Source: a candidate division Kazan bacterium RIFCSPLOWO2_01_FULL_48_13 (lineage in GTDB: Bacteria; Patescibacteriota; Kazan-3B-28; UBA10110). From it: a DNA stretch of 36,021 nucleotides. The notes under the pieces were generated by a model. That model searched no databases. It was not told the DNA's origin and saw only the letters and a program-made list of their open reading frames with translations. The position numbers were made by a program, and so were the translations under genes. Numbering within the stretch: position 1 is the stretch's first letter; every line of letters starts with the position of its first letter. The stretch lies in assembly GCA_001771275.1 (NCBI GenBank), contig METE01000002.1:5924-41944 (forward strand), written 5' to 3'. This document shows positions 19,565 through 25,824 of this stretch, piece after piece.

Positions 19565-20462
19565 AGAGCAGGCTCTGTCGGCGGCTAAAATTTTAATAGT
19601 TACTCATATTAAGCCCGATGGCGACGCTATTGGGTCGGCTTTGGCGCTTCGGATACTGCTAAAAGAGCTGGGCCGAGAGACAGAGGTGGCCCTGATGGAC
19701 GATCCGCCCGAAGCGTTCTCGTTTCTGCCATATTTTTTAAAGATCAAAAACGACTTTCGGCCCGAGCACTTTGATATGGTGGTGATGGCGGATTGCGGCG
19801 GTTGGAGTCGTACCGGCTGGTTTGAGGATGACGAACTGCGGATCGATTGGCCCAAATATTTAGTGATATTGGATCACCACCATACGCAGGATTACAGCCC
19901 GGGGATGGTAATTGCGGATGAAAGTTTATCTTCTACCGCCCAACTCGTCCACTATATATTCCGTGAGTGGGGGATAGAGATCAACTCGGATGCCGCCAAC
20001 TGTTTAATGACCGGCCTCTCAACTGATACTGGCAGTTTTAAGCACACCAATACTACTCCCGAAGTGTTTCGCATAGCGGCCGAGTTAATGGAGAGCGGTG
20101 CCAATCTCAATAAGATCACTCAGCATATCTATTTAGGCAGAAGTGTGGCCAGTCTTAAATTGTGGGGCCGGACCTTGGATAAGATTCAACAGGATCGGGC
20201 GCTGGGGATAGTGATCTCGGTGATCACCACGGCAGATTTAGAGGAATGCGGGGCGACACTGGAAGATTTGGAAGGAGTAATCGATCTGATGAACACGGTG
20301 CCTGATACTAAGGCCACCTTCTTGCTATCAGAACGGGGCGACAAGTTAAAGGGAAGCGTGAGAACGAACGATCCGGATGTGGATGTCAGTAAATTGGCCG
20401 CCATCTTCGGCGGCGGCGGACATATTAAAGCCGCTGGCTTCAACATCTCCCTCGACGGATAA
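19524..20462 (+). CDS. DHH-family phosphoesterase (NrnA-like)
   Basis: VTHIKPDGDAIGSALAL, VILDHHHTQ, LMTGLSTDTGSFKHTNT, FGGGGHIKAAGF. Confidence 0.9.
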   Translation: MISTDLKLKIQTFREQALSAAKILIVTHIKPDGDAIGSALALRILLKELGRETEVALMDDPPEAFSFLPYFLKIKNDFRPEHFDMVVMADCGGWSRTGWFEDDELRIDWPKYLVILDHHHTQDYSPGMVIADESLSSTAQLVHYIFREWGIEINSDAANCLMTGLSTDTGSFKHTNTTPEVFRIAAELMESGANLNKITQHIYLGRSVASLKLWGRTLDKIQQDRALGIVISVITTADLEECGATLEDLEGVIDLMNTVPDTKATFLLSERGDKLKGSVRTNDPDVDVSKLAAIFGGGGHIKAAGFNISLDG

Positions 20463-20507
20463 ACCAACTTGTCCTTGGACTTGACCCGGGGACCCAGAAA
20501 CCCAACT

Positions 20508-20537
20508 TGTCATCCCAGACTTGATCTGGGATCCAGG
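20508..20537. repeat. Palindromic intergenic repeat unit
   Basis: GTC-ATCCCAGA-CTTGA-TCTGGGAT-CCAGG. Confidence 0.7.
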
Positions 20538-20547
20538 CTCTCCCTTC

Positions 20548-20606
20548 GTCATTCTGGCTTGCCGCGCCCCGTAGTGAGCTCTGCTCTACTACTGGGGTCC
20601 AGAATC
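20548..20606. repeat. Palindromic intergenic repeat unit
   Basis: GTCATTCTGG ... CCCCGTAGT ... ACTACTGGGG ... CCAGAAT nested inverted repeat. Confidence 0.6.
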
Positions 20607-20615
20607 GTACTATTC

Positions 20616-20639
20616 GTCATTCCTGCGAAGGCAGGAATC
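20616..20639. repeat. Palindromic repeat GTCATTCCTGCGAAGGCAGGAATC
   Basis: Perfect 8-bp stem ATTCCTGC/GCAGGAAT with GAAG loop. Confidence 0.7.
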
Positions 20640-20649
20640 TTGTCTTTCT

Positions 20650-20710
20650 GTCATCCTGGAAACACTTTACTGCCGTAGGCTTACTATAAATAACTTATTC
20701 AGGATCCAGG
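20650..20710 (+). repeat. Dispersed ~60-bp repeat, copy 1
   Basis: GTCATCCTGGAAACACTTTACTGCCGTAGGCTTACTATAAATAACTTATTCAGGATCCAGG; near-copy at 22028-22087. Confidence 0.85.
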
Positions 20711-20884
20711 TCTTCTGGGCCGTTTTTTGTTATTCTTAACTTACTTTTGCCACCCATCCGTCAGCTGACGGACTCAAACAACGACCCCGCGACGGCGATT
20801 TTACAAACGGCTCACGCTCGACTCCGGAGGGCGGAGTAGAAGGCCAAATATAGGAGAAAATCAGGTCTGGGAGCGGAAAAGTTG

Positions 20885-20913
20885 TTGACACCAGCCCGGA
20901 TTAGTAGTATAAT
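20885..20913 (+). promoter_or_regulatory. Perfect consensus sigma70-like promoter TTGACA-N17-TATAAT
   Basis: -35 20885-20890, -10 20908-20913, 17-nt spacer. Confidence 0.85.
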
Positions 20914-20932
20914 ACGAGAGCATAAAGGAAGC

Positions 20933-21046
20933 ATGGTTGTCAAGGAATGGGGTTGCCCTTTGACAGTGAGAAGACAGGAAATAAAAGAGAGCATGACCGT
21001 GAGGTCAGGCGCTCTATCCGATAATTCTCTTTTAAGTCCGTCTTAG
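20933..21046 (+). CDS. Putative 37-aa leader ORF
   Basis: ATG after AAAGGAAGC; MVVKEWGCPLTVRRQEIKESMTVRSGALSDNSLLSPS; TAG stop falls in the loop of a CCGTC/GACGG hairpin. Confidence 0.35.
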   Translation: MVVKEWGCPLTVRRQEIKESMTVRSGALSDNSLLSPS

Positions 21047-21106
21047 GACGGCACGATGAACTCTGGGGTTCTACCAACATGTAGTTGGCCCCACGGAGAA
21101 AAAATG
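21034..21106 (+). promoter_or_regulatory. Structured two-hairpin RNA leader, copy 1
   Basis: CCGTC-TTAG-GACGG; GGGG-TTCTA-CCAAC-ATGTA-GTTGG-CCCC; CGGAG SD; ATG. Confidence 0.6.
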
Positions 21107-21559
21107 AGAAAGAATAATTACGGGATAGTAGCGCTGGTTATGGGGTTGGCTATCATTCTCCTTATCGGAATCGTAGTGACTGTCGTCAATGCTCGCATGC
21201 GCGGTGCTGCCACGCAGAGTCCGTCGAGAATTAATAGTGACTTGCGTCTCTCCGAGGCACTGGACGCTTATTCCAAACGCGCCGACTCCGTACCAATCGA
21301 GATGTGGGGGGACGAGCTACTTATCTCCAAGAGTGTCGAGTTTCGGACGAGGTATTCCCAGCACCTTAGTGCTGAAGTGTTACCGTCGTGTAACCTTATG
21401 TGGGGAGATGAATTAAGTGTAATTATTGGTTCTTCGACCGAACCTGTTGAGATGACTGTCACGAAAGCTGGCGATGCTGAAGTGACGATTTCCCTCAGGC
21501 CGATGGGCTGGTGGGAAGATTCTAACGAAAAACAACAAGATGTTGGACCTAAGCAGTAA
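21104..21559 (+). CDS. Orphan small single-TM protein with duplicated MWGDEL motif
   Basis: CGGAG SD; TM YGIVALVMGLAIILLIGIVVTVV; MWGDELLIS and MWGDELSVI. Confidence 0.65.
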   Translation: MRKNNYGIVALVMGLAIILLIGIVVTVVNARMRGAATQSPSRINSDLRLSEALDAYSKRADSVPIEMWGDELLISKSVEFRTRYSQHLSAEVLPSCNLMWGDELSVIIGSSTEPVEMTVTKAGDAEVTISLRPMGWWEDSNEKQQDVGPKQ

Positions 21560-21582
21560 AACTGAAAATCCGTAGATGTCGT

Positions 21583-21659
21583 AAGTCCATTCATTTTATG
21601 AATGGCACGCTGATCGAGGGGTTATTTACAGCATTAGCTGGCCCCACGGAGAAAAAATG
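21583..21659 (+). promoter_or_regulatory. Structured two-hairpin RNA leader, copy 2
   Basis: CCATTCA-TTTTA-TGAATGG; GGGG-TTATTTA-CAGC-ATTA-GCTG-G-CCCC; CGGAG SD; ATG. Confidence 0.6.
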
Positions 21660-21860
21660 ATAGGAAAAGCCGATTTCTGGCTGTTATATTCCTACGGGAT
21701 GTTTTGTTTCTTGAGTGGAGTATATATGCTTTGCTCCCACCCCGTAACATCTTTCGGCGGCTGGTTTGCATGCATATCTCTGGTATTGGGACTGGTGTTG
21801 ATGCCTCTCGCAGCGTATCTTCACACGCCCAAACCAATTAAGGAAAAACGAAAAAATTAA
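21657..21860 (+). CDS. Orphan 67-aa two-TM membrane protein
   Basis: SD/start segment identical to the upstream gene; hydrophobic segments FWLLYSYGMFCFLSGVYML and WFACISLVLGLVLMPLAAYL; basic tail. Confidence 0.6.
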   Translation: MIGKADFWLLYSYGMFCFLSGVYMLCSHPVTSFGGWFACISLVLGLVLMPLAAYLHTPKPIKEKRKN

Positions 21861-21885
21861 AAACCTTGGGGCCTAAAAACCCCAA

Positions 21886-21935
21886 AGACTTGCCAAAGGT
21901 TCACCCCGAGGGGTGTTAATAGGCAGTCTTTTTTT
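21886..21935 (+). terminator. Terminator closing the two-gene unit
   Basis: AGACTTGCC ... CACCCC-GA-GGGGTG ... GGCAGTCT then T-run; extra TTGGGG/CCCCAA hairpin at 21866-21885. Confidence 0.75.
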
Positions 21936-22027
21936 ATGCAAAAATCACTGTCATCCCGAAAATACCTAACGCCAATAAAAAATATCGAATATAAAACTAA
22001 CTGGCGGATAAAGAACGACAAAAAGGT

Positions 22028-22087
22028 GTCATCCTGAAAACACCTTACTGCCGTAGGCTCTATAAAATAACTTATTCAGGATCCAGG
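22028..22087 (+). repeat. Dispersed ~60-bp repeat, copy 2
   Basis: GTCATCCTGAAAACACCTTACTGCCGTAGGCTCTATAAAATAACTTATTCAGGATCCAGG. Confidence 0.85.
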
Positions 22088-22093
22088 CCTTAA

Positions 22094-22135
22094 GATTCTG
22101 GAGTCGTCCGTCAGCCGACGGACTCCCCAGAATGA
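22094..22135. repeat. Palindromic repeat with nested TCCGTCAGCCGACGGACTC
   Basis: ATTCTGG ... CCGTCAGCCGACGG ... CCAGAATGAC; related TCCGTCAGCTGACGGACTC at 20757-20775. Confidence 0.65.
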
Positions 22136-22196
22136 CGGATGGGGGTTATTGGGAATGATGCGGATTAGGTTTTTGTAATTCTTAATTTGTAATTGC

Positions 22197-22877
22197 TCAG
22201 CGGTATTTTTCGAGGGCGGCTTCGGCGGCGGCCATCTCGGCGGACTGTTTAGAGGGACCGATTCCCCGGGCAATCTCTTGTTCGCCCAATAACACCGCGA
22301 CTTCGAATATTTTATTGTGATCTGGGCCAGATTCGGCTACTACTTTGTAGATCGGAGTAATGCCCGCCTTGTCTTGGGCTGCCTCTTGGAATTGGCTTTT
22401 AGCGTCTAAGTAGGCTTGGTTGGCGATGATCACATCTAATTTGGGTAGCAGGTAGGTAGCCAAGAATTTCTGCGCCGGTTTAATGCCACCATCCAAAAAG
22501 ATGGCGCCGACCAATGATTCGACCACATTGGCCAAAATCGTTACTTGGTTGTTAACGCCCTTGGCTTCGCCTTTGCTTAGTTTTAAGTATTGATAAAGTT
22601 TTAATTCGTCGGAGATCTGCTTTAGAGTTTCTTTTTTTACCAAGGCCGACCGCAGAGCAGTTAGCTCGCCTTCTGGTTTATCGGTAAACTTGTGGTACAG
22701 ATATTCGGTAACCACCAACTCTAATACCGCATCGCCCAAAAACTCCAGCCGCTCGTTGTGGCCGGGTTCGAATTCGTTCTCATTTAAATACGATCGATGA
22801 ACAAACGCCTGCTCAAGCAGGATGGGTTTCTTGAATTTAATGCCTAACTGTTTTTCTAATGTGGTTAGGGGAGTCAT
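22197..22877 (-). CDS. rnc: Ribonuclease III
   Basis: HNERLEFLGDAVLELVVTEYL, NVVESLVGAIFLDGG, C-terminal dsRBD. Confidence 0.95.
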   Translation of the reverse strand: MTPLTTLEKQLGIKFKKPILLEQAFVHRSYLNENEFEPGHNERLEFLGDAVLELVVTEYLYHKFTDKPEGELTALRSALVKKETLKQISDELKLYQYLKLSKGEAKGVNNQVTILANVVESLVGAIFLDGGIKPAQKFLATYLLPKLDVIIANQAYLDAKSQFQEAAQDKAGITPIYKVVAESGPDHNKIFEVAVLLGEQEIARGIGPSKQSAEMAAAEAALEKYR

Positions 22878-25065: not shown

Positions 25066-25113
25066 GGAGTGTTAGCGGATGTACCGCTGAATCTTGAAAA
25101 ACAGGTGACGGCG

Positions 25114-25824
25114 ATGAAAAACATTGACGGCGCTGTATTGAGAAAGTTGGGAGAGTTGTGCCGACTGGTGCAGGATGCTCTCTCGAGTTTTACCCCAGCC
25201 TCACTGCAGAAAATCATTGAGCAGGGCGGAGAGTGGAAGAAGGGGATTAGGAAGTTGGTACTTGAACTCGGCGGGCAGGAAGCCGTTGTGGCGGTCGAGG
25301 AGTCCGAAAAACCACCAGTCGAGATTTCTGATGCGGCTTATCGCCGTCAGACCTGGACTCTGATTTGGCGGTGGGCGATGTTTACTGCATTCCTGACCGC
25401 CATATTTTGGGGTGTCTGGTATGCAATTGCTGGAGAAATCCCGACTGTAGAAAAAGTGCTCTGGTCGGTAGGCGAGAAAGGCCCACCCGTCCAGTGGCTA
25501 CAACTTCCATTCGCTATTTCCAGATGGTGGGATGTGATGTTGGCTCCGGTATGGAGTTCGATGATTATTTTGATTTTTAGAACAACGACCGACAAAGCCG
25601 TTTTAGATAGTGTCGGTGTCGGACTCGGTGTCGGACTCGTTGCTGGACTCGTTGCTGGACTCGGTGTCGGACTCGGTGCCGGACTCGTTGTCGGATTCTA
25701 TTTCGGACTCTGTTTCGGGCTCGTTGCCGGACTCGTTGCCGGACTTGTTGTCGGACTCGTAGGGCTAATCGTGAGCCCTCAATCACTGTTGAGAAGTTTT
25801 GGGAAATGGCTGGCTGGCGACTGA
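25114..25824 (+). CDS. Membrane protein with C-terminal glycine-zipper tetrapeptide repeats
   Basis: TM segment plus about 12 xxGL units (GVGL/VAGL) encoded by a 12-nt tandem repeat. Confidence 0.65.
   Translation: MKNIDGAVLRKLGELCRLVQDALSSFTPASLQKIIEQGGEWKKGIRKLVLELGGQEAVVAVEESEKPPVEISDAAYRRQTWTLIWRWAMFTAFLTAIFWGVWYAIAGEIPTVEKVLWSVGEKGPPVQWLQLPFAISRWWDVMLAPVWSSMIILIFRTTTDKAVLDSVGVGLGVGLVAGLVAGLGVGLGAGLVVGFYFGLCFGLVAGLVAGLVVGLVGLIVSPQSLLRSFGKWLAGD
25611..25762 (+). repeat. 12-nt tandem repeat (GTCGGACTCGGT-type)
   Basis: Serial degenerate copies of GKYGSACTCGKT in frame with the CDS. Confidence 0.85.

Follow-up and report, generated by a model that had tools for sequence, protein, structure and literature searches.

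Two copies of a two-hairpin RNA leader precede two small genes of one predicted operon in the 36,021-nucleotide stretch of DNA analysed here (the window). We give about an even chance to the reading that this element is a cis-acting translation-control leader that has been duplicated within the operon, one copy per cistron, and that answers to a factor inferred from its conserved bases. If the leader is a regulator, translation of each cistron of the operon would be under a separate copy of a duplicated operator, in bacteria with small genomes. An open-access literature search returned very little on RNA regulation in this bacterial group, and one review on the group brings up riboswitches solely as possible future genetic tools (PMC11665869).

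Anatomy and likeness of the two copies

Both copies lie on the + strand, at 21034-21107 and 21583-21660. The original prediction had described them as two copies of a two-hairpin leader, and its strings are exact, with copy 1 ending at 21107 instead of 21106. As assigned from the covariance model and folding, each consists of a hairpin (P1), a linker and a second hairpin (P2), followed by the SD sequence and start codon. In copy 1, P1 spans 21036-21054, the linker CACGAUGA starts at 21052, P2 is closed by GGGG (21065-21068) and CCCC (21089-21092), and the SD (GGAG, 21095-21098) precedes a start codon at 21104-21106. The corresponding features of copy 2 are P1 at 21585-21608, the linker CACGCUGA from 21606, GGGG (21618-21621) and CCCC (21642-21645) of P2, the SD (GGAG, 21648-21651) and the start codon (21657-21659). 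The 3′ 22 nt are identical, as originally claimed: the 22-mer TGGCCCCACGGAGAAAAAATGA, which spans the SD and start codon of each copy, occurs at 21086 and 21639 and at no other + strand site in the window.

A covariance model of the element, the check that had been suggested, was built from copy 2 alone and recovers copy 1 at 49.7 bits (E = 3.7e-11; window, filters off). The next full-length match in the window has an E of 1.6 and is a chance fragment. In a BLAST search of the whole genome, 26 nt are common to both copies (E = 5.5e-6). The likeness of the two sequences is thus beyond chance. Both copies also fold more stably than their shuffles (z = -2.55 for copy 1 and -2.56 for copy 2). The conserved unpaired bases are GGCACGnUGA on the 3′ side of P1 and CACGGAGA over the SD. 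Within them, a CACGnnGA motif follows P1 and P2 in both copies (21052, 21092, 21606 and 21645, the P2 site being CACGGAGA); the motif is present elsewhere in the window too.

Both copies form P1 as a perfect Watson-Crick stem (CCGUC/GACGG in copy 1, CCAUUCAU/AUGAAUGG in copy 2), flanked in each by GU/AC with a bulged C. The stems differ in bases and length while pairing is kept, and shuffled interiors form both P1 stems with a probability of only ~3.6e-5. In a structural alignment of the two copies, all pair cells are standard (37/37, 100%). Four pairs change on both sides, three in P1 and one in the inner P2 stem, versus none in every slid control; a letter-shuffle control reached this in 35 of 500 runs, which is not significant, and n = 2 sequences limits such pair statistics. 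The GGGG/CCCC stem of P2 is invariant. The inner P2 stem has a single compensatory pair, stems of equal length arise in 4.6% and 22.6% of shuffles, and in copy 1 a CUAC/GUAG fold competes with it. The P1 hairpin is therefore well supported as a predicted structure, and the inner P2 stem is weak. The earlier claim that both stems keep pairing with different bases accordingly stands for P1, with its three two-sided changes, and is weak for inner P2. Its corollary, that compensatory stems indicate selected RNA structure, is borne out insofar as P1 keeps pairing as its bases change, but two copies and the letter-shuffle result hold it back, as covariation cannot be established beyond two sequences.

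Reading P1 as a DNA-binding palindrome is disfavoured because the dyads of the two copies differ in sequence. Copy 1 P1 was also likened to a dispersed palindrome, GTCCGTCAGCYGACGGAC, but only three pairs extend past the bases common with copy 2, and the resemblance is not compelling.

The element appears to be confined to this species. With the covariance model, no third copy was found in its own genome (0.79 Mb, 97% complete), in the eight other genomes of the order, which together with its own make up nine genomes covering the whole class as sampled, or in 380 genomes sampled across the phylum. The top match among the 380 (G308, E = 0.0098) was rejected because it falls within apparent coding sequence for tyrosyl-tRNA synthetase (tyrS). 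Exact-anchor DNA patterns gave either zero or 42 scattered matches in GTDB contigs, none backed by the covariance model (best E = 0.54), and pattern scans of viral contigs gave 8 and 3 matches, again none backed by the model. The original prediction had named the absence of further copies in related genomes as grounds for refutation; in these genomes none were found. It had fared better in recognising no known riboswitch class: Rfam 15 has no match at the gathering cut-off across the whole window, and relaxing E to 5 over 20850-21950 yields only a chance antisense-RNA match on the opposite strand. A new class of cis-regulatory RNA calls for several homologues with significant covariation, and here there are two copies, with pair statistics limited by n = 2. 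On this sequence evidence the element fits no catalogued family, and two copies do not make a new class; we would file it as a species-restricted cis-regulatory leader of a generally known kind.

The transcription unit and its place in related genomes

Transcription would start from a predicted sigma-70-type promoter on the + strand (20849-20913) with an upstream box, TATAGGAGAAAATCAGGTCTGGGAGCGGAAAAGTTG, a -35 hexamer TTGACA (20885-20890), a 17-nt spacer and a -10 hexamer TATAAT (20908-20913); the match to consensus over 20885-20913 is 12/12. All features that follow are on the same strand. The leader, ~185 nt long, consists of hairpin A (UGUCAAGG...CCUUUGACA; 20938-20965), predicted by folding and by alignment with the sister species, hairpin B (AGAGC..GACC-GUGA-GGUC..GCUCU; 20988-21015), predicted by folding, and element copy 1. 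It is followed by ORF1 (21104-21559), then, after 23 nt, by copy 2, by ORF2 (21657-21860) and by an intrinsic terminator predicted from its fold (AAGACUUGCC...GGCAGUCUUUUUUU; 21885-21935). As a single promoter, leader, ORF1, copy 2, ORF2 and terminator stand in series, a single mRNA very probably carries both copies. An upstream frame in the leader (20933-21046; 37 codons, with an AAGGAAG ribosome site) was considered as a gene and rejected: it shows no coding signal, and the sister species lacks its start codon. The stop codon of this frame lies right in the copy 1 P1 loop.

ORF1 encodes 151 residues with one N-terminal transmembrane helix and has a moderate codon signal (z = 3.0). ORF2 encodes 67 hydrophobic residues, probably with two transmembrane segments. 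Its codon signal is z = 0.5 and two other frames outscore it, so that codon usage alone is no proof of coding and the reality of ORF2 rests on the shared start module. As the original prediction held, the two genes are orphans by family and genome searches. Neither product belongs to a family in Pfam, NCBIfam or PHROGs, the sole Pfam match of ORF2 falling below the cut-off. For ORF1, the PDB holds no relative, and the predicted structure is poor (mean pLDDT 48). Matches of either among the phylum genomes are weak and mostly of hydrophobic stretches. The two proteins are unrelated to each other, yet the homology of the elements in front of them is strong, so what the two genes share is the leader.

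The whole unit (20462-22197) is inserted between convergent nrnA and rnc, and the locus is anchored by the latter, the RNase III gene, which is the next gene and lies on the opposite strand. Two more distant members of the same family (G002 and G003) have nrnA immediately next to rnc, with no insertion. The sister species (G001), whose RNase III is 87% identical, has at the same place (locus L020) a homologous promoter, hairpin A, a hairpin B with a GUG loop (GAGAC-GUG-GUCUC) and a similar terminator at ~1201-1265, with a BLAST match at the terminator 3′ end. Both terminators fold stably, with z = -2.7 here and -5.3 in the sister species. The interior of the sister locus holds two different ORFs, with no meaningful alignment to ORF1 or ORF2, and the element was not found there. 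Since two relatives lack the insertion and the sister species has the same ends around other ORFs, the unit is, by sequence comparison, a genus-level insertion whose ends are conserved and whose interior has been replaced. The original prediction had missed the single transcription unit, the conservation of promoter and terminator in a sister species without the element, and the promoter family described below.

Direct repeats (TGTCATCCTG..AAACAC... and AAATAACTTATTCAGGATCCAGG) flank the operon at 20641-20775 and 22019-22125. A palindrome, TCCGTCAGCYGACGGA, also brackets it and recurs near other loci of the promoter family.

Possible translational control and competing explanations

The leader is kept before unrelated genes, P1 is conserved in shape more than in sequence, and the start site is the most conserved part, which fits a duplicated translational operator. 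In keeping with such an operator, both copies lie between a 12/12 promoter and a terminator, and several further leaders of this promoter family have structure as well. Counting against it are the restriction to two copies in all sequence searched, the sister species' use of the same promoter without the element, SD masking that is not conserved, and a neighbourhood with no obvious regulator or ligand-linked gene.

The original prediction had proposed that copy 1 sequesters its SD. In folds at 37 °C, CUC(U) is indeed predicted to pair with the copy 1 SD, each pairing base having a probability of 0.88-0.94. The bases surrounding the copy 2 SD are 54-85% unpaired, the value varying with the sequence context, so masking is predicted for copy 1 and is not a conserved feature. 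A long-range UCCGU/ACGGA stem over the SD was also considered. It reaches a probability of 0.6-0.7 for copy 2 in one context, falls to ~0.05 in a longer one, is absent from copy 1 and is unproven; ATCCG is present upstream of both copies.

With masking limited to copy 1 in these predictions, any mechanism common to both copies should depend on a factor that binds the conserved linker and SD bases, and not on masking alone. The two cistrons, very probably co-transcribed, each have a copy of the element lying right over the ribosome-binding site, and from this anatomy we infer a trans factor, its signal and the direction of control. The factor, more likely an RNA-binding protein than a small ligand, would read GGCACGnUGA and CACGGAGA as presented by P1 and P2, and its binding would block or allow ribosome entry at both genes together. 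The extra CUCU-GGAG pairing in copy 1 could add an intrinsic off state, while ribosomes coming from ORF1 may help to open the site in copy 2. A dimeric RNA-binding protein might use the pair of CACGnnGA sites after P1 and P2, though the pairing of sites is suggestive only. A bolder version appears doubtful to us: that of a lineage-specific class of translational operators, placed once per cistron under a conserved promoter family for fast-evolving genes and read by an RNA-binding factor at a pair of CACGnnGA sites, one behind each hairpin.

The element resembles several known systems in part. Like the autogenous operators in ribosomal-protein leaders, it is a structured mRNA element over a start site, an arrangement by which an operon's translation can be tied to a protein, but here each cistron has its own copy, the products are orphan membrane proteins and no Rfam leader matches. 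The mini-ykkC (guanidine-II) riboswitch likewise has two tandem hairpins before a start site and repeated ACG-type conserved bases. Its conserved bases are in the hairpin loops, whereas those of the element are 3′ of the stems, and Rfam gives no match even at an E of 5. The ACGGAG motif overlapping the SD recalls CsrA/RsmA operators. These have at least two ANGGA sites, at least one of them in a hairpin loop, whereas the SD site is the only one common to both copies of the element and lies outside the loops. RNA thermometers (ROSE-like, fourU) share the pairing over the SD seen in copy 1, but they pair it at low temperature in every member; in folds at 37 °C the SD of copy 2 is mostly open, and the main stem of the element is a strong GGGG/CCCC.

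Apart from regulation, the element could be a constitutive ribosome-binding module, whose hairpins would keep SD-AAAAAA-AUG open or protect the transcript and which was copied with its strong start site and senses nothing. Such a module agrees with the conservation of the SD and start codon above all else and with the mostly open SD region of copy 2, and neither regulator nor ligand is in sight, no obvious ligand-linked or regulator gene adjoining the element. However, a plain ribosome-binding site needs neither the closing bases of P1 nor GGCACGnUGA, ~40 nt from the SD, yet both are conserved, and the copy 1 SD is predicted to be paired; we consider the module rather unlikely.

Drift would not hold a perfect P1 of differing sequence and length while 22 nt stay identical, which argues against the copies being relics of a local duplication, one or both without function and alike by common descent only. 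We judge this improbable, although there are only two copies and the locus is rapidly replaced, with different genes in the sister species and no insertion in two other family members. A DNA-level origin as a cassette-type recombination site (attC-like), one per gene, would explain the head-to-tail repetition of the element-ORF unit and the replacement of gene content between species. It is nonetheless very improbable, as the integron core (RYYYAAC/GTTRRRY) is absent from both copies on direct reading, each element includes the SD and the start codon for the gene behind it, and no third copy was found in the genome.

A promoter family in the order

The box upstream of the -35 hexamer belongs to a wider family. 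The pattern CTGGGAGCG-N7..10-TTGA has 15 matches in 8 of the 9 genomes of the order, versus one for the reversed pattern. Twelve of the 15 align as (G)CTCTGGGAGCG-N2-AAAA-N3-TTGACA (in short form, CTCTGGGAGCG-N9-TTGACA) followed by a -10-like hexamer at mostly fixed spacing. No Pfam match was found in any of nine downstream proteins tested, and several leaders behind the box are strongly folded, with z down to -3.8. This conserved box is predicted to drive lineage-specific genes with structured leaders, a side result that possibly outweighs the element itself, and it offers a handle on lineage-specific genes that have no other annotation.

Several members of the family have features of their own. 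Leaders L089 (own genome, contig C2, ~1560-1650) and L096 (sister species, ~1560-1660) have GCACCUUGAAGACU in common, which resembles the element linker GGCACGnUGA; this likeness is a lead only, because the covariance model has no match there. The two form a different structured leader, CCACC-RGCACCUUGAAGACU...GGUGG, in which a GGUGG farther upstream is a possible alternative partner for CCACC. At L085, L087 and L094 (~1580-1640; three other genomes), the promoter drives a short conserved gene of 45-52 aa (e.g. MQKSPKIIDFSGMQFDVNRR...), with its ribosome-binding site beside or within a GGGUGG...CCACC hairpin. Elsewhere in the window, 25069-25824 encodes a predicted membrane protein that ends in a long Gly-Val-Leu repeat (VGLVAGLVAGLGVGL...).
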